In this document: piece after piece, positions 29,212-44,489 of the stretch
How the letters are laid out: each line of letters opens with the position of its first letter
Position numbering within the stretch: the first letter of the stretch is position 1
From: Candidatus Nezhaarchaeota archaeon
GTDB taxonomy: Archaea; Thermoproteota; Methanomethylicia; Nezhaarchaeales; WYZ-LMO8
Direction: 5' to 3'
Assembly (NCBI GenBank): GCA_030055465.1
Contig: JASFYF010000001.1
Span: 762,447-826,446, forward strand
DNA length: 64,000 bases
The notes under the pieces: generated by a model
Told to the model about the DNA's origin: nothing
Database searches by the model: none
What the model saw: the letters and a program-made list of their open reading frames with translations, nothing else
Program-made: the position numbers and the translations under genes

Positions 29212-30416
29212 TTAAGTAGGAATACATGGTGAATTGTTACCTTCATTTCTACTTAACTCTTCCCCTTCGATTATTTCATTGGGGGCTTTCGGGGAGAACC
29301 CGATTCCCCACATCCTGAGGATGTTGATGCAAGCTATAAAATGTCTGTCTGCCTTAAATCCGCAACCTTTGCATTTAAAGACCTGCTCATTTGTCTTGGA
29401 CAAACGCCCGCATCTTGGGCAGGTCTTGCTCGTGTTCTTAGCTGAAACGTAGTGTGTTTTGTAGCCATGCCACGCCATTTTGTATTCAATGAAGTCTTGG
29501 ATTTTCCTGTAGGGTAGGGAGGAGACTTTTCTATTTTTACGCTTAGCGTATTTATTTCTCGTTGCGTTGTAGCTTAACCCCTTTAGTTTCTTGAGGATTG
29601 GGGTAACGCCGTTTTTAACGAATTCTCTAACGATTGCCGTGGTTACTTTGTGAAGGATGTCGTTGATCCTTCTTTTCTCATGCTTAGAGTATTTCTCCAT
29701 AAGCATCTTTGAAGTATTGGGCTTAAATTTGGACAAAGCTTGGATTTTCTACGCTTCTCAAAATAATGAACCCTTACGCTGTACAGTTTCTTAAGGTCGA
29801 TTTTCCGATACCTTAACTCATCCTTTGCTTCAAGTATGTCTAAGCTCATTAGGTTAATGTCTACTGAACCGTAGCCACGGGGCTTTTTCTCTTCAACCTC
29901 TTTCTTGAAGGTTACAATCGCTCCATTGTTGAGTAACGTGATTTCCCCAACCTTTAACTTTCCCCCTCTCCATCCCTCAACAAATTATCTTTGATAGGAG
30001 CCTATGACCAGCGGAACTTCGATCCAGCTGTAAGGTTTTGTTGTAACGACTATTTTATCTCCACTATTTTATCTCCTCTGAAACCGCATAAGTTCCTTCT
30101 GGAGTCTCATGGCTGAAGCTTTAAAGGTTGGAGGTTTATTGGAGTTGGCCTTTCCCCTCTTCACAAGCCTCTTCCAAGAACGTATTATTCCACATGCTAC
30201 CCTGCAAGCCGATATGCAATAGTGAGTTGCAAATCCATACTTCTGCTTGAAATGGTTGTAGAGCGCTCTCTCAAGCTTCATTGGAGAGCTGATGTTGTTC
30301 TTTAAGGCATAAGCCATGCATTCGTTAACCATTTGATTGAAGACCTCAATCAGGGGCTTGACATCAGCATTATGCTTGAAGACCACCGCTTTAGCTGCTT
30401 CCATTCCTGCGCTCAC
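29212..30416 (-). pseudogene. tnpB: TnpB RNA-guided nuclease relic (IS607/IS605-type), at least four lesions
   Basis: Assembled from three minus-strand frames: MEAAKAVVFKHNADVKPLIEVFNQMVNECMAYALKNN... (30069-30416); GDKIVVTTKPYSWIEVPLVIGSYQR*FVEGWRGGKLKVGEITLLNNGAIVTFKKEVEEKKPRGYGSVDINLMSLD...; KFKPNTSKMLMEKYSKHEKRRINDILHKV...KTCPRCGRLSKTNEQVFKCKGCGFKADRHFIACINI (29212-29736). Confidence 0.92.
30049..30076. repeat. 14 bp perfect tandem duplication (actattttatctcc x2) inside tnpB relic, frame-breaking
   Basis: Direct reading of 30041-30080; removing one copy rejoins ...MRFQ(R)GDKIVVTTKPYSWIEVPL. Confidence 0.95.
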
Positions 30417-30579
30417 CTCTTAGAATTTTCTCTATGTCGCTTTTGTAATAGCGTAGTTTTCCACTTGGAAGGCGGGCCGCTCTTATGAGTCCCTTCTTAT
30501 ACCATAGCCATAGAGTCTTGTTGCTAACTTTAAGGATGGTTCTGGCTTCCTTCGGTGTAATGAGTTCTTCGTATGACAT
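30391..30579 (-). CDS. MerR-like HTH protein, equivalent to the DNA-binding domain of IS607 TnpA without the serine recombinase domain
   Basis: MSYEELITPKEARTILKVSNKTLWLWYKKGLIRAARLPSGKLRYYKSDIEKILRGERRNGSS*; overlaps the tnpB start as IS607 tnpA does. Confidence 0.75.
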   Translation of the reverse strand: MSYEELITPKEARTILKVSNKTLWLWYKKGLIRAARLPSGKLRYYKSDIEKILRGERRNGSS

Positions 30580-30662
30580 CAAAGAAAATATTAGAAATGA
30601 GTTAATATTTAAGCCCGTCCATTCTGAAACTGCTGACAACTGGCTAGAGACTTCATCCATAA

Positions 30663-31338: not shown

Positions 31339-31773
31339 TTAATAATCCTTTATGTGCTTCACTATTTTGAGTTTCAGCACTTTTTGGTTGTTTAAAAGCC
31401 TGTCGTCTGCAGTATACATGATGGCTCCTAAGCTTGAAGCCAACGTTATATATGCTGCATCATAAACTGTTACATTACTGTCTAGGCTTGTCTTTAAACT
31501 CTTTAAGGCAATGTTCAGATCTATCTCATGCAGCCTTATCTCCGAATTCGCTATGAGTTCCAAGGCTTTCTCCGCTACATCCCTGCCTATAAAGCCCCTC
31601 AAGCAATACTTCCTTAGTGCGCTAGCAGCCTCTAAGAGAATGATGCTGGGCGCTTGAACATCAACATTACCATCCAGAAAGTCATCCCTTAGCTTTAAGG
31701 CATATTCAGCATAGTCCTCCGGTATAACCCATTTAATGATTACGCTTGCGTCCGCAACAACCTTATCGCTCAT
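31339..31773 (-). CDS. vapC: VapC-type PIN domain toxin
   Basis: MSDKVVADASVIIKWVIPEDYAEYALKLRDD...VTVYDAAYITLASSLGAIMYTADDRLL. Start trimmed to ATG at 31773. Confidence 0.9.
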   Translation of the reverse strand: MSDKVVADASVIIKWVIPEDYAEYALKLRDDFLDGNVDVQAPSIILLEAASALRKYCLRGFIGRDVAEKALELIANSEIRLHEIDLNIALKSLKTSLDSNVTVYDAAYITLASSLGAIMYTADDRLLNNQKVLKLKIVKHIKDY

Positions 31774-31975
31774 CCCTATCCTCCCTGACGAACTCGGCTG
31801 AAAGGTTACCCTTAACCTCTCTAATGCTTTCCCTAAGGCTATCCATATCCAACCGGAGCCTCTCAGCCCTCTTAACCCTTGCAAGCCTCTCCAGGAAAGC
31901 CCTAACCTCACTAGCATAATCTATTCCAAGCCTGTCAAGCTCCTCCTTAAGCCTCTTAGGAACCCTAAAACTCAT
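31763..31975 (-). CDS. vapB: VapB-like antitoxin
   Basis: MSFRVPKRLKEELDRLGIDYASEVRAFLERLARVKRAERLRLDMDSLRESIREVKGNLSAEFVREDRDER, overlapping vapC start. Confidence 0.85.
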   Translation of the reverse strand: MSFRVPKRLKEELDRLGIDYASEVRAFLERLARVKRAERLRLDMDSLRESIREVKGNLSAEFVREDRDER

Positions 31976-32249
31976 GACTACACTCAACGTAAACACCAAA
32001 GACGTTGGGAACAGTAGACAAAATAAAGTTTACGCTTTTATATGACGAGGTTAAGGCTTTCGAGTGGATAGGCAAAAGCATCGCTACTGGGTGTGAGGGA
32101 ACTAAAGTTTCCTTGGAGAAAAGATAAAGCCTCATCCCAGCAACATCCCACGGACTGGGAAACACACCTACTAATGGGCATACTACCATTCATACTATAG
32201 TCGGAAAACCCCTGCCAAACAGGAATAAAGCTTTTAATCTTTACTAAAA

Positions 32250-34621: not shown

Positions 34622-35896
34622 ACATGAATGTTAAAATACGCATCACCTATTTAAACATCAGTCTGAACGTGTAAACAAGTTGTCTGCAAAAGAGTGTGGA
34701 GACAGGCTGTTCAGCGCATTCCAAAGCGTACCATCAAAATCTTTCATCATACGTGCTGTAGGGCTGCTGGATAATGATGCGGCTGTTGATGCATGGCTGG
34801 CTTGTTGTGGTCTGCAGCGTATTTTGGAGCTTCTTGCTGGTTGCCGCAAAACATTTATTAGGGTGTTTCATGGTGAAGTGAGGGCTGTTATCCGGCTTGA
34901 AAGGGATGTAATGGATGATCCTGCTTTACGTGGCACTTGCCACGGGAGCTGCTGCATTAGCCGTTGTGGCATGGCTTGCCTGGAAGGGTTTTAAGCGAGC
35001 CCCCGGGCAACCCCCGCATGGTTGAGGTGTCGGGCTACATTAGGGAAAGCGCTGAAGCGTTTATCCGCAGGCAGTTCAGCACCATAGCCGCTGCTATAGG
35101 GCTGCTGCTTATACCCTTCGCCCTGCTGGATGTTCGGGCAGCGTTCTCTTTTGTACTGGGCTCATGTCTCTCGCTTCTCGCCGCCTATATAGGCCTACGC
35201 ATAGCTGTTGAGGCCAATGTGAGAACAGCCCATGCGGCAACAGCTTCGCCTCTTAAAGCCTTCAACATAGCCTTCAGCGGCGGCTCCGTCACCGGGTTGT
35301 CCGTGGTGGGTCTAAGCCTGATAGGCGTATGCTCCCTTTACCTGCTCTATGGGGAAGCCAGCCCAATAGTAAGCTTCGGCTTCGGTGCAAGCCTCACGGC
35401 GCTGTTCGCCCAGCTTGGAGGCGGAATATTCACTAAGGCGGCTGACATAGGCGCGGACCTTGTGGGCAAGGTGGAACGCCACATCCCCGAGGATGACCCG
35501 CGTAACCCCGCGGTCATCGCAGACCTTGTAGGCGATAATGTGGGTGACTGCGCCGGCAGGGGCGCTGATCTTTTCGAGTCGATGAGCAACGACTACATAA
35601 CCGCCCTAATCCTCGGGGCGCTGGTGTCATGGCAGTATAGCCAGGCAGCCATGGCTTTTCCCTTCATGCTGGGCGCCGGAGGCATAATAGCAGCCGTAGC
35701 CGCCATAGCCCTTGTGAGAATGTGGGGCGATGGAAAGCCCATTTCAAAATTCAACCTGGGATTATTTGCAACTTCGCTTTTCCGTGTTCTGGGCTCGCTG
35801 GTCGCCTGCGCCGTCACCATAGGCGACTTGAAGATTCTCGCGGCAACCGTTGGGTGGACAGCAGTCCTAAATAGATAGATTTTTGTAGACGTTTTA

Positions 35897-37056
35897 GTGT
35901 ATACTCTATTCGTGGAGATAGTCCTCAGCGTTCCATTTGTTTACAAGGTTAACGATGAAGTTAGAAAGCTCTTAGAGGACTTCAGAGATATGGTGAACTT
36001 CTGCGTAGGCTTTGCCGCTGAGAGGAGGATAACTTCTTACGCCAGGCTTAGAAAGAGCGTTTACGAAGAGTGGAAGGGGAGGGGGATTACTCCACTCACT
36101 ACTGTCATTCAGCATGTAAAATAGCCTTAGCTATGCTCAAAAGCTTTAGGAGGCTTAAGCGTAAGGGATTAGCCAAGTTTGACAGGCCTGAAGCTAAAAA
36201 GCTCTTCATGCAACTCGACCCGCAACTGTACAAGTTTTACGGTGATAGGATCAGGATATCCGTTAAGCCCAGAAAGTTTCTCTTCATAGAGTTGAAGTAT
36301 GGTGAATATCAAAAGAAGTTCATAGATGCTTGGAAAGAGGGGAAGTTGAGGACTGGAGAGGTCACCATAAATGAAACGAAGATAATTATACCGTTCAAGA
36401 AGGAGGTTGACCTCACCAATCCAAGCGACTGGATGGCGATAGACGTCAACGAGTCCAATGTTACTGGAGTGAGCACAAACCCTCACATCATGAGGGTTGA
36501 AAGCAGCTTGAGGACGATTCACACAACCTACTTCAGCATCATTAGGCGAATTCAAAGGCTGGGGAAATACAAGCCGGAGACCACTGAGAGGTTGCTTAAG
36601 AGATATTCTAATAGGAGAAAGTCTAAGGCTAGAGACGAATGCCACAAAATATCTAGAAAAATCGTGGATTTTGCCAAGCAACACGGCTTTGGCATAATCA
36701 TAGAGGATCTCAAGGGAATTAGGAGAAGAATTAACTGAATTAACTACGGTAAAAACCTCAACCGTAGGCTGCATTCCTGGAACTTCAGGAGGATGCAGTT
36801 CTACATAGAGTACAAAGCTAAGCTTGAAGGTTTGCCAGTCGTATACATCAATCCTAAAGACACTTCAAGCCTATGCCCGATATGTGGCGGCAGGCTAGCG
36901 TCGAATGGGTATAGGCTTCTGAAATGTGAAAAATGTAGATATGAAAACGATAGAGACATAACCGCTTGCCTAAACCTACTCAGGATGAGGGGAGCCCCGT
37001 TGCCCCCGAAAGCCCTCTATGACCCTCAGATAATAGAGGTGAGGGGGAAGGGATGA
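35897..37056 (+). pseudogene. tnpB: TnpB with catalytic residues present but frameshift and duplication-derived stop
   Basis: VPFVYKVNDEVRKLLEDFRDMVNFCVGFAAERRITSYARLRKSVYEEWKGRG / THYCHSACKIALAMLKSFRRLKRKGLAKFDRPEAKKLFMQLDP...WMAIDVNESNVTGV...HGFGIIIEDLKGIRRRIN*INYGKNLNRRLHSWNFRRMQFYIEYKAKLEGLPVVYINPKDTSSLCPICGGRLASNGYRLLKCEKCRYENDRDITACLNLLRMRG. Confidence 0.93.
36728..36745. repeat. 9 bp perfect tandem duplication (gaattaact x2) creating an in-frame TGA in tnpB
   Basis: aggagaa-gaattaact-gaattaact-acggt; removing one copy gives RRRINYGKNLNRR. Confidence 0.95.
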
Positions 37057-38177
37057 AAATCTATGAATCCCACAACGGTTGGTTGCAAGCCTTGTGGTAG
37101 GTGTTGCCGTACAGTACTACACGGAGATTAACGGTCCAGTTATCAGGGAGGTTACGGAGTCGTCTAGAGCAGGATCCGCCATAAACATTCTAACAGGCAT
37201 GGCCTACGCTCTTCAAAGTCCCTTCCTGCCCATATTGTTCATAGCCGCAGCCGTGGGGTTAGCCTACATCCTAACCGGCGGGTCCCTGTATGCCGTTTTA
37301 GGGGGTTAACCTTGGAACGGACTTGGCCATAGGATTCATAATGTCAGGCGACGCCTTCGGCCCCATATGCGACAACGCGGACGGCATAGCTGAGATTGTC
37401 TCAAACCCGCACCGTTGGGCTTGACGAGCTTGACGCTCTTGGAAACACTACGAAGGCGTATACCAAGGCCTCCGCAACCTCCTCAGGCATGGTTTCAACC
37501 ATGGTGATGTTCATCACCTTCGCGCGGCTTGTAAACCTTCATGAGAACAGCCATAACATTCTAAGCCCAATATTCATAGCGGGCCTCCTATTCGGCGCCA
37601 TGCTGCCCTTCACCTACTCATCCTTGGCTATTAAGGCGACAAGCAAAACAGCCTACAAGATTGTGGATGAGGTGCGAAGGCAGTTCAGGGATAACCCAGG
37701 CATACTGGAGGGCAAATCCAAGCCTAACTACGCAAGAGATGCGTGGACCTCGCAACGAAGCATGCGCTTAGGAACATGATGGCCCCAGCCTCGTTAGCTA
37801 TACTCCCGCCCATAGCCGTGGGGCTAATCCTGGGAAGACACGTTTCAGGCGGGCTCCTTCTCGGCTGCCTCATCTCCTCCGTGCTGCTCTCCTCCTTCAT
37901 CTTCGGCGGAGGCATATGGGATAACAGCAAAAATAAATTGAAAAAACTGGATGAAAAACACCCCAATCCACGAGGCGGCGGTGGCAGGAGACATCGTAGG
38001 CGATCCCCTAAAAGACGTGGCAGGCCCATCGCTCAACATATTCATGAAACTAACAACCATAACCGCCCTACTAATAGCCCCCTTCATAATACCCTAAAGC
38101 ATCTCCACCACACATAAACGGGGACTGTGAAGCCGCAACGCTATATGAAGGGCGCATGTAAGCAGCCCTGAACAGGA

Positions 38178-38280
38178 GGGCCATCAAGAATCATCCTCAA
38201 GCATCCCCCAGCGTAAGCCTGGGTCAACTGTGAAAAAACGACGGGGTATCGATTTTGTAGCCCTCGTCAGCCGTTAAAAT
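38178..38280. repeat. Left copy of ~100 bp diverged direct repeat flanking the ATPase gene
   Basis: gccatcaagaatcatcctcaagcatcccccagcgtaagcctgggtcaactgtgaaaaaacgacggggtatcgattttgtagccctcgtcagccgttaaaatc; aligns by eye with 39459-39572. Confidence 0.55.
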
Positions 38281-38301
38281 CGGTTTTCCCGGAAATGTTA
38301 A

Positions 38302-38336
38302 GTATCAGGGGTGATACATTGTATCAGGGGTGATAC
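38302..38336 (+). promoter_or_regulatory. Two perfect copies of a 16 bp palindrome at the start of the ATPase gene
   Basis: GTATCAGGGGTGATAC (38302-38317), spacer att, GTATCAGGGGTGATAC (38321-38336); each has perfect 6 bp arms around GGGG. Confidence 0.8.
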
Positions 38337-39439
38337 TTCTGCTCTTCGATCCCAGACCTAAAGAACACATGGAGGAGCTTTTCGACAGGGAGGAGGAATT
38401 GAAGCTGCTCAGGAAGGCAATATCCACTCCATTAACGCTGCTCTTAGGTGTCAGAAGGGTTGGCAAAACCTCCCTTTTAAAGTCCTTCTTGAACAGCCTA
38501 GGCGCCCCCTATGTATACCTTGATCTGAGGGTTTTGGAGGATGGAGGATACAGCAGGGCGCAGCTGTATCGATTGCTTTCAGACTCCGTTTCCAATTGTA
38601 TATCCAAATGGAAGAAGATGCTTGATTGCTTCAGAGGCATAAAAGGCGTCAGCATTTCCGGCTTCAGTGTGGAATTTGACTGGAGAGAACAAACCCTCAC
38701 CCTAACAGCCCTCCTAAATAAACTAAATGATTACGCGCTGAACAGGACAGATGAGGGTTTCCTCATTATCTCCTTTGACGAGGCACAGTTTCTAAGGCTT
38801 CTGGCAGGCGGCAAGGGAAGAATAGACTTTAGAGGCATAATGGCTTACGCCTATGACAACCTAAGAGGCTTAAGGTTTATACTCACAGGATCCGAGGTTG
38901 GGCTGTTACTGCACTTTCTAAGGCTTGACGATGCTTCAAGCCCACTATATGGGAGATACGCCAGCATCGTAAGGGTTGAAAGGTTCCCAAGGGACAGGTC
39001 GATTGAATTCCTGAGAAGAGGCTTCATGGAAGCCAACCTGCCCATAAGCGATGATGCATTAGATGCCATTGTGGATAAGGTTGACGGCATCCCAGGCTGG
39101 TTAACCTACTTCGGCTATATGTGCCTTGAATCCGGAGGCGCATCGAAAGAAGCCATCAAAGCCGTAACGGAAAAAGCATTAGGGCTCGTTGAAAGGGAAC
39201 TTAAAGAACTTTTCAAAAGATCCAGCCAATACAAGCATGTACTCAAAGCCATCTCCCTCGAAGCAAACTCGTGGAGTAACATCAAAAGAACTGTTGAAGC
39301 ATGGATCGGGAGAAGACTCACAAATGCAGAGACAACCAGATTCCTCAATACGCTGATAAACCTAAGTATTGTGGAAAAAACAGACGGCGAATACAAAATA
39401 GCTGACCCGTTAATAGCGGAATATTGCAGAAAAATCTGA
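38330..39439 (+). CDS. Archaeal ATPase (AAA, PF01637-like) with C-terminal winged-helix-like region, intact
   Basis: ELFDREEELKLLRKAISTPLTLLLGVRRVGKTSLLKSFL, FLIISFDEAQFLRLL, LRFILTGSEVGLL, GIPGWLTYFG. The ATG at 38369 (MEELFDREEEL) is a likelier start than the GTG at 38330. Confidence 0.92.
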   Translation: MILLLFDPRPKEHMEELFDREEELKLLRKAISTPLTLLLGVRRVGKTSLLKSFLNSLGAPYVYLDLRVLEDGGYSRAQLYRLLSDSVSNCISKWKKMLDCFRGIKGVSISGFSVEFDWREQTLTLTALLNKLNDYALNRTDEGFLIISFDEAQFLRLLAGGKGRIDFRGIMAYAYDNLRGLRFILTGSEVGLLLHFLRLDDASSPLYGRYASIVRVERFPRDRSIEFLRRGFMEANLPISDDALDAIVDKVDGIPGWLTYFGYMCLESGGASKEAIKAVTEKALGLVERELKELFKRSSQYKHVLKAISLEANSWSNIKRTVEAWIGRRLTNAETTRFLNTLINLSIVEKTDGEYKIADPLIAEYCRKI

Positions 39440-39458
39440 TACCCCTCCAATAAGCAGG

Positions 39459-39572
39459 TGATCAATAGGCACCTTAAAACATGGTTGAGTGTAAGCGCCG
39501 AACTAACGTGAAAAACCGGGGGGGGGGTGCTGATTTTAGAGCCCATATCAGCCTACAAAATCACGCTCAAGA
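39459..39572. repeat. Right copy of ~100 bp diverged direct repeat flanking the ATPase gene
   Basis: gtgatcaataggcaccttaaaacatggttgagtgtaagcgccgaactaacgtgaaaaaccgggggggggtgctgattttagagcccatatcagcctacaaaatc; shares gtaagc, aac-gtgaaaaa, gatttt, tagccc/agagccc, tcagcc, aaaatc in the same order with 38178-38280. Confidence 0.55.
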
Positions 39573-39686: not shown

Positions 39687-40610
39687 ATGAAAGTGCTTAT
39701 TACTGGCGGCGCAGGCTTCATAGGGCATAACACTGCAGTTTACCTTAAAAATCAGGGCTACGAGGTAGCCGCATTTGACAACCTTAAAAGGGCCACAGGA
39801 TACGCCGTTGAAAGGCTGAAGATGCATCGCGTGCCCCTCATTAAGGGCGACATACTAAGCCTCAGAGCTTTAAAAAAAGCCTTAGCAGGCGTTGATGTGG
39901 TGGTGCATGCAGCCGCCTACATAAGCGTTGAAGAATCCCTAAAGAAGCCCGCCATGTACTTCAGAAACAATGTTGCAGGCACAGCCAACGTGGCCTATGC
40001 CTGCATGCGCGAAAGCGTGAAGCTCATCTACATCAGCAGCGCAGCCGTCTACGGCAACCCAGCCCATCTGCCGATAAGCGAATCCCACCCGGCGAATCCC
40101 ATTTCACCCTATGGCCTATCAAAGCTCATGGGCGAGGAGACGGTGAACTTCCATGCACGGCGAGGCCTAAAACACGTTACACTTAGGCTTTTCAACGTCT
40201 ATGGGCCTGGGCAGAGCAGCAGCTACGCCGGCGTAATAACCCGCTTTATGGAGAGAATCAGGGCGAACAAGCCGCCCATAATCCATGGGGATGGACAGCA
40301 AACCAGGGACTTCATACACGTTTACGACGTGGCGGAGGCCATAAAACTCTCCGTGGAAAAGCGCTTGGAGAACGAAACCCTCAACATAGCCACGGGAACC
40401 CCCCTCACCATAAGGATGCTGGCGGAGCTCACCATAAATCATGCAAACCTAAACCTAAAGCCAACATTCGCCAAGCCGCGGCCCGGCGACATAAAACACA
40501 GCTATGCAGACATATCAAAAGCCAAAAGGCTCCTGGGCTTTAATCCAAAAATAAACCTTGAACAGGGCTTAAAGGAGCTTTTAAAACTTAAAACATGCCT
40601 TTCCTCCTAA
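39687..40610 (+). CDS. NAD-dependent epimerase/dehydratase (UDP-glucose 4-epimerase-like)
   Basis: MKVLITGGAGFIGHNTAVYLKNQGYEVAAFDNL, ISSAAVYGNPAHLPISESHPANPISPYGLSKLMGEE, GDGQQTRDFIHVYDVAEAI. Confidence 0.95.
   Translation: MKVLITGGAGFIGHNTAVYLKNQGYEVAAFDNLKRATGYAVERLKMHRVPLIKGDILSLRALKKALAGVDVVVHAAAYISVEESLKKPAMYFRNNVAGTANVAYACMRESVKLIYISSAAVYGNPAHLPISESHPANPISPYGLSKLMGEETVNFHARRGLKHVTLRLFNVYGPGQSSSYAGVITRFMERIRANKPPIIHGDGQQTRDFIHVYDVAEAIKLSVEKRLENETLNIATGTPLTIRMLAELTINHANLNLKPTFAKPRPGDIKHSYADISKAKRLLGFNPKINLEQGLKELLKLKTCLSS
40153..40344 (+). repeat. 192 bp tract identical to 43255-43446
   Basis: Base-by-base reading, constant offset 3102, no mismatch found. Confidence 0.97.
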
Positions 40611-43109: not shown

Positions 43110-43220
43110 GGATAGGTTAAAAGGAACTTGAAGAGCTGCTTAAAGGATCCAGCAACTACAAGCACGTGCTCAAAACCATCCCCCTCGAAGCAAGCTCGTG
43201 GAGCAACGTCAAAAGAACTA
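43110..43220 (+). pseudogene. Fragment of a second archaeal ATPase homologous to the C-terminal region of 38330-39439
   Basis: KELEELLKGSSNYKHVLKTIPLEASSWSNVKRT versus intact RELKELFKRSSQYKHVLKAISLEANSWSNIKRT. Confidence 0.85.
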
Positions 43221-43500
43221 TCAAAGCTCATGGGCGAAGAAGCTGTAAAATCCTATGCACGGCGAGGCCTAAAACACGTTACACTTAGGCTTTTCAACGT
43301 CTATGGGCCTGGGCAGAGCAGCAGCTACGCCGGCGTAATAACCCGCTTTATGGAGAGAATCAGGGCGAACAAGCCGCCCATAATCCATGGGGATGGACAG
43401 CAAACCAGGGACTTCATACACGTTTACGACGTGGCGGAGGCCATAAGGCTTTCAGCTTAAGAGAACTAGCCGAGCTTATAACCAGATTAGCAAGGCGAAG
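43218..43500 (+). pseudogene. Epimerase fragment fused to the ATPase fragment
   Basis: SKLMGEEAVKSYARRGLKHVTLRLFNVYGPGQSSSYAGVITRFMERIRANKPPIIHGDGQQTRDFIHVYDVAEAIRLS; 43255-43446 is identical to 40153-40344. Confidence 0.92.
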
Positions 43501-43636: not shown

Positions 43637-44032
43637 CTAAACTAATATGGCTTTCAGCCCCAGCTTCCCCGCCGTTTTTGCCTGCTTAGCGTCGCTTGTT
43701 ACCAGCTCTTGGCTTCTATCCTTTGATAGGGCTATGAAGAGCGCATCGTATATCGTTAACCCGTGCTTCGCGGAGATTTCAAATGCGTTGACCAGATACT
43801 TATCTTGGTTTACTATCGGTATGGGCTTCTCTTCTACCATGTCCTTAAGAATTCCCATTGCAGCTTCACAGCTCAGGTCACCCCTCAAAACCTTCTTCAA
43901 TAATGCGTTTGCCACTTCTTTTATTGCTAGATCCAGCGTTATCACGCCTTCTAAGATGATCTTCCTAGCTTTCTCCCACCCATCCTCGCGCGCGAAATAT
44001 TTAATTAAAGTCGAGGAGTCAATGACCCTCAC
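43637..44032 (-). CDS. vapC: VapC-type PIN domain toxin
   Basis: MRVIDSSTLIKYFAREDGWEKARKIILEGVITLDLAIKEVANALLKKV...LTIYDALFIALSKDRSQELVTSDAKQA. Confidence 0.92.
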   Translation of the reverse strand: MRVIDSSTLIKYFAREDGWEKARKIILEGVITLDLAIKEVANALLKKVLRGDLSCEAAMGILKDMVEEKPIPIVNQDKYLVNAFEISAKHGLTIYDALFIALSKDRSQELVTSDAKQAKTAGKLGLKAILV

Positions 44033-44243
44033 GGTCCTCCCTCACAGACTCCTCAGAGAAGCCCGCTTCACTCGACCTCACGTCCCTTAAAATATTATCC
44101 CATTTTTCGATCATCCTTTTAATCTTCATCATCCATGCCAGTTCCTCCAAATACCTTCTAATCTCTTCGCCTACATTTAAGCCGCTTTCTTCTAATATCC
44201 TCTTAACCTCTTCTCTAACCCTAACGCTGACCACGGTGCTCAT
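44019..44243 (-). CDS. vapB: VapB-like antitoxin
   Basis: MSTVVSVRVREEVKRILEESGLNVGEEIRRYLEELAWMMKIKRMIEKWDNILRDVRSSEAGFSEESVREDREGH, overlapping vapC. Confidence 0.85.
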   Translation of the reverse strand: MSTVVSVRVREEVKRILEESGLNVGEEIRRYLEELAWMMKIKRMIEKWDNILRDVRSSEAGFSEESVREDREGH

Positions 44244-44489
44244 AAACACCGTTAAAATCATTAAAGTCCACAAATTTATAAACATTTATGTCTACAAAAA
44301 ATAGGACGAGGCAAGCTAGACTTGCCTTCCCAGAAAAGAACTTTCAAGGTCTTTTCACCAACATCTGGAAAAACAGCAGTTTTTACCTTGTTTTTCAGAT
44401 CGTGCTAAGCCATGCTGAACCGCTACGCGTGGTTAAAGAGCTTATCGATGCCGGTGATAACGCTAATAGAAGCTAGAAGCATTAAGAAT

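Follow-up and report, generated by a model that had tools for sequence, protein, structure and literature searches.

A stand-alone, horizontally transferred archaeal AAA+/winged-helix ATPase that probably represses itself by acting on its own core promoter

Restriction-modification controller (C) proteins and lambdoid repressors are regulators that bind tandem dyads on their own promoters, and their operators have diversified. The usual binding place of an archaeal activator is upstream of BRE/TATA, and tandem binding sites next to an initiator gene are typical of replicons. The SSO1545-type ATPases, an abundant archaeal family with solved structures, have been placed structurally with Cdc6/Orc1 (PMC4599002). 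Among known activators are STAND-type ATPases like IniR, whose ATPase domain has a predicted structural similarity to SSO1545 (PMC5760070). In the literature searched, neither an operator nor a target had been described for SSO1545/2QEN-type ATPases, and no paper dealt with the operators presented here, although an earlier mention in the SSO1545 structure paper is possible.

The locus considered here lies in a 64-kb window (the whole stretch of DNA that was analysed) of a 1.02-Mb archaeal genome. It holds an ATPase gene which, judged from sequence comparison, probably acts on its own core promoter and represses itself. Its features, in window coordinates, are as follows.

38296–38301, + strand: weak TATA-like position TGTTAA, abutting site 1, as placed by the family promoter alignment.
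38302–38317, + strand: candidate operator site 1, GTATCAGGGGTGATAC; tandem dyad score 18/18, with the same pair before the homologue L009.
38321–38336, + strand: candidate operator site 2, GTATCAGGGGTGATAC; the centres of the two sites are 19 bp apart, and the GGGGTG of site 2 doubles as a Shine-Dalgarno-like element.
38330–39439, + strand: AAA+/STAND-like ATPase gene with a C-terminal winged helix; aligned start CTG at 38339, GTG at 38330 also in frame.
39320–39340, + strand: codons for residues 331–337 (TNAETTR), the start of the predicted recognition helix, which covary with operator bases.

A preliminary description of the window had reported an intact archaeal ATPase, and this is borne out by the uninterrupted ORF of 369 aa at 38330–39439 (+) and by its match to the PF01637 profile at 47.8 bits (curated cut-off 33.2). 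The Walker A (GVRRVGKTS) and Walker B (ISFDEAQ) motifs are both intact, and G45, K46, S48, D150 and E151 were invariant across the 20 ATPase sequences compared. The solved archaeal structures 2FNA (SSO1545) and 2QEN are full-length homologues (E 1.4e-64 and 2.3e-69, respectively), with phmmer alignments spanning residues 4–363/366, C-terminal winged helix included; a match of residues 297–357 to the MCM_C winged helix reached 22.4 bits, under the curated cut-off of 27, and an NCBIfam search returned zero matches. The nominal GTG start falls within the second palindrome, and the aligned start is the in-frame CTG, which several homologues also have at this place. Assignment as an anti-phage defence protein was rejected, the PADLOC defence models giving only weak matches of 19–24 bits, none full-length (PDC-S27 scored 20.6 bits, and PDC-S01 matched the P-loop region), that do not place the ATPase there.

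Around the gene, a membrane pyrophosphatase-like gene (34964–38117) is broken by a TnpB-like insertion (~35897–37056, zinc-ribbon motif visible) and by further frame breaks. An IS607-like pair at 29212–30660 consists of a MerR-type HTH/resolvase-like ORF (30391–30660) next to broken TnpB pieces, and two VapBC-like toxin-antitoxin pairs on the minus strand (31339–31999 and 43637–44285) flank the ATPase region.

The sequence GTATCAGGGGTGATAC is present at 38302 and 38321 and has no further copy within the window; no other site with two or fewer mismatches was found across the genome. Each site consists of 6-bp arms, GTATCA and TGATAC, flanking an asymmetric GGGG. What had been described as a doubled perfect palindrome at the start of the gene is therefore doubled, but is an inverted repeat around an asymmetric core rather than a perfect palindrome. 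Among the 61 genomes of the phylum compared, the closest homologue (L009, 73% identity) comes from another family of the phylum (G060) and carries an identical operator pair. At the other end of the gene, the stop codon lies inside TGATACCCCT (39437–39446), which holds a single reversed operator-like half-site, AGGGGTATCA, and may be due to chance.

A profile search of 398 genomes of the phylum found family members in 133. After 100 extra loci were added, 144 non-redundant members were kept, and in 141 the region from -65 to +5 was searched for the top-scoring tandem dyad (four half-sites, maximum 18). The mean score was 15.96/18, compared with 11.9 further upstream, 12.2 downstream and 11.95 in dinucleotide shuffles, and 111 of the 141 homologues exceeded the 99th control percentile for tandem dyads of ~16–18 bp between the TATA box and the start codon. 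The dyad period was 18–20 bp (19 bp in 77 members, 18 in 28 and 20 in 18). About one-fifth of the members did not rise out of the control range, often through degeneracy of one site of the pair. A scan of genome contigs with the single protein as query gave one distant locus, L178, with tandem repeats upstream by eye.

Alignment of 122 promoters, anchored on the junction J between the sites, placed an A+T block corresponding to the TATA position at J-23 to J-18 (A+T 0.87–0.95 at J-22 to J-19). Site 1 runs from this block to J and site 2 starts after J, with the start codon mostly at ~J+17 to J+21; the commonest placement in the family has site 2 ending exactly at the start codon. The half-sites in these loci comprise ~50 distinct 6-mers of the pattern [A/G][C/G]T followed by three variable bases. 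The putative tandem operator is conserved in its architecture family-wide while its sequence has diversified, and a conserved operator at its own promoter is what would be expected of an autoregulated DNA-binding protein.

On the coding strand, site 2 has a G-rich core in 107 of the 122 loci and a C-rich one in 6, which fits a Shine-Dalgarno element. This bias at the Shine-Dalgarno position would also suit repeats that work in RNA, through translation control or a hairpin, rather than in DNA. Such a role is highly improbable, however, given that site 1 abuts the TATA box and so is probably not transcribed, that the two sites are conserved as a pair, and that the half-sites covary with the DNA-recognition helix. 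In L085 and L100 the core of site 1 is C-rich (e.g. GTATCACCCCCGATAC), opposite in orientation to site 2; from such members the orientation of the site 1 core appears to be free and that of site 2 not.

Mutual information between operator bases 4–6 and the well-aligned protein columns ranked residues 331, 333 and 334 as the top three, and the top-ranked column for base 2 was residue 332. After removal of whole-protein distance, no 7-column window followed operator distance more closely than 331–337 (partial correlation 0.349; window mean 0, s.d. 0.075), with 0/999 permutations in a Mantel test of the helix. D332 occurred with C2 in 61 loci and with G2 in none, and K/N332 with G2 in 23 loci and with C2 in none. 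On a tree of the ATPase domain only, changes at residue 332 and at base 2 coincided on 8 branches (Fisher p = 2.9e-6), and base 2 was unchanged on 9 of the 17 branches with a change of residue-332 class. In nearest-neighbour operator transfer the helix was the better guide only below 60% overall identity, with 3.83 against 3.58 for the ATPase part, and 3.03 against 2.32 below 45%; at 70% the two tied.

Columns of the ATPase domain (e.g. 80, 154 and 162) covaried with the operator too, probably because of phylogeny. A low-confidence single-sequence structure model (mean pLDDT 42; winged helix 55–63) predicted helix H3 at 332–344 followed by a two-strand wing; with a model of this quality, the assignment of the helix draws mainly on covariation and homology. 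Residues 331–337, where the predicted recognition helix begins, covary with the sequence of the candidate operator, and specificity that follows the recognition helix would be expected of an autoregulated DNA-binding protein.

The half-site ACTTCTA was predicted from the 2FNA helix SDSEIYN before the operator was inspected. Indeed, the gene at L193 (genome G392), whose protein is 100% identical to 2FNA, is preceded by ACTTCTGGGGGTAGAAGT-T-ACTTCTGGGGGTAGAA-GTG. The half-site is ACTTCT, so that 6/6 predicted bases were right and the seventh differed, a result that tests transfer by the helix in the near clade rather than far extrapolation, since close relatives of SSO1545 with the same class were in the training set. 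SSO1545 shares the tandem layout before the gene with the window ATPase but differs from it in helix and half-site (SDSEIYN and ACTTCT compared with TNAETTR and AGTATC).

Exact GTATCAGGGGTGATAC occurred 16 times in 11 of the 398 genomes (reversed control 0), L187 being the one case not located at a family gene start; some of the genes concerned are decayed. In 12 Sulfolobaceae genomes, all matches to the SSO1545-type operator with at most one mismatch were at family gene starts, the sole apparent orphan, L217, preceding a dead remnant of a family gene; matches with two mismatches were scattered and single, with no family gene close by where checked. The predicted operator sites are near-exclusively at their own gene. 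A role as a dispersed genomic site or regulon was sought in the window genome, the 398 genomes and the 12 Sulfolobaceae genomes, and was not found. There was no signal that equal operators avoid one another within a genome (3 same-half-site pairs against 2.5 expected; 5 pairs at one mismatch against 8.0 expected, P = 0.18). At L187 (1460–1540) the tandem operator (GTATCACCCTTGATAC / GTATCAGGGGTGATAC) stands orphaned beside a PAPS-reductase-like gene, no ATPase being recognisable there; either the ATPase has been lost or the site is a second target.

Family mates of the window genome are mostly without the ATPase gene. In the pair L084/L087, with 97% protein identity, shared DNA is confined to -94..+40 around the gene and the sequences are unrelated beyond; in L061/L070 (86%) its limits are the operator (-33) and the stop codon. 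No neighbour gene was conserved in 65 loci, save ATPase shadow ORFs and groups of four or fewer loci. Shared DNA limited to the surroundings of the gene, together with the want of a conserved neighbour, supports horizontal movement of a bare operator–gene module. A toxin-antitoxin or restriction-modification module was rejected, as no adjacent partner is conserved in these loci.

Further repeats and fragments around the gene are listed below.

38183–38281, + strand: left flank repeat, locus-specific, by alignment to the right flank.
39461–39562, + strand: right flank repeat, locus-specific, by alignment to the left flank.
43116–43233, + strand: decayed ATPase C-terminal fragment, with 97/116 aligned bases identical to the ATPase C-terminus (84%).
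43218–43446, + strand: epimerase fragment fused to the ATPase C-terminal fragment; corresponds to 40116–40344, 221/229 identical (97%).

The preliminary description had taken diverged direct repeats on both sides of the gene, and a second, non-identical ATPase C-terminus, as signs of a proliferating unit. The repeats are real, the local score of one flank against the other (26) being equalled by 0/1000 dinucleotide shuffles and 0/1987 random window pairs; in the comparison of family loci they reach z = 9.0. Neither flank has a further copy in the window's genome, and L009 and L053, the nearest two relatives, have flanks that match them no better than shuffles do. Relatives with the same flanks had been proposed as a check, and the repeats proved not to be a family feature: direct repeats with z>4 flank 3 of 135 family loci, and the inverted control gives 8. 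They were rejected on these counts as the mark of a mobile unit for the family. A transposon or insertion sequence was likewise rejected, as domain profile searches of the window ATPase unit found no nuclease, transposase or recombinase domain. Orthologues lacking both repeats and palindromes had been named as evidence to the contrary; those found lack the repeats, yet carry the palindromes. One member, L025, has a 25-bp direct repeat (22/25 identical) with CCCC/GGGG arms at -147 to -122 and +37 to +62 of the gene start/stop (z = 5.1).

The second C-terminus is present, but not as an independent or transposed copy. The fragment continues into a nearly identical stretch (43218–43446) of the epimerase gene, the next gene after the intact ATPase, and is thus a relic of a duplicated ATPase–epimerase block. 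This rules it out as a sign of proliferation. What stands of the proliferating unit is horizontal transfer and a patchy, multi-copy spread, as in L084/L087.

A selfish mobile gene, whose operator is also the recognition or landing site for the ATPase's own transfer, would account for this patchy multi-copy distribution in 133 of the 398 genomes, for a nearest homologue that belongs to a different family of the phylum, for the unrelated flanks of the 97%-identical pair, for neighbours that are not conserved and for the direct repeats around the window copy and L025. The absence of a nuclease or transposase domain argues against it, as do flank repeats that are not family-wide and the empty operator sites expected of a landing site, which were not found except at L187. 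Nor were relatives found on plasmids, phages or viral contigs with the queries used, the viral scans detecting close relatives only. The landing-site reading is accordingly unlikely, and active selfish transposition of the ATPase unit is doubtful to the same degree.

Self-regulation, raised as a possibility in the preliminary description, is strongly supported by the conserved placement of the sites, the protein–operator covariation and the confirmed SSO1545 prediction. The palindrome pair is very probably the operator of the ATPase gene, bound by the protein's own winged helix. The C-terminal winged helix would occupy all four half-sites, with residues 331–337 reading half-site bases 2–6 (AGTATC at the window locus). 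Because the sites fill the space from TATA box to start codon, occupancy should block TFB/RNA polymerase; with the core promoter hidden under the bound protein, the gene would be silenced. Binding, repression and nucleotide control are all steps that we infer from sequence: repression is likely if the gene is autoregulated, and the AAA+/STAND-type domain plausibly sets operator affinity through its nucleotide state.

The same operator could instead serve an autoactivator or nucleotide-gated switch resembling the STAND regulators MalT and IniR, in keeping with the activator role of such ATPases. A protein on these sites, however, would sit past the TATA box and ahead of the start codon and so stand in the way of initiation, and not upstream of BRE/TATA like most archaeal activators, which makes this alternative quite improbable. 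The structural grouping with Cdc6/Orc1 and the tandem sites beside the gene also recall a replication-initiator-like element, an Orc1/Cdc6-like AAA+ winged-helix protein with two iterons. There are, however, many copies per chromosome and only two sites, always on the promoter, and the searches for plasmid and phage relatives were negative; an initiator is extremely unlikely.

Under autorepression, each family member would be paired with a private operator and, within the searches made, would have no further target; gene and operator together would thus form a self-contained module, transferable and able to work at once in a new genome. We propose, tentatively, that these ATPases may form a large family of stand-alone mobile archaeal regulators, with private protein–operator pairs whose sole target is self and a natural winged-helix/DNA code (~50 half-sites against residues 331–337), spread by virtue of self-contained control rather than of benefit to the host. 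The SSO1545-type ATPases now have a candidate target, their own promoter. More than 100 natural protein–operator pairs offer a source for reading a winged-helix recognition code, testable by residue swaps, and archaeal genetics could draw on them for many candidate orthogonal repressors. They also raise the question of why a DNA-binding ATPase that regulates only itself is retained.

Among described systems, C proteins and lambdoid repressors resemble the ATPase module in being small mobile modules with a regulator on tandem dyads of its own promoter. The ATPase differs in being an AAA+ ATPase–winged helix rather than a small HTH protein, and in lacking a conserved neighbouring partner from restriction, toxin or phage systems. 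Toxin-antitoxin autoregulation (e.g. VapBC) shares with it a private palindromic operator over the module's own promoter and horizontal spread, whereas the ATPase is a single gene with no partner. STAND regulators of the IniR/MalT type likewise join an NTPase to a DNA-binding domain, but act on an operon and carry extra sensor domains; the sites of the ATPase, a protein of ~345–400 aa, were found only at its own gene.
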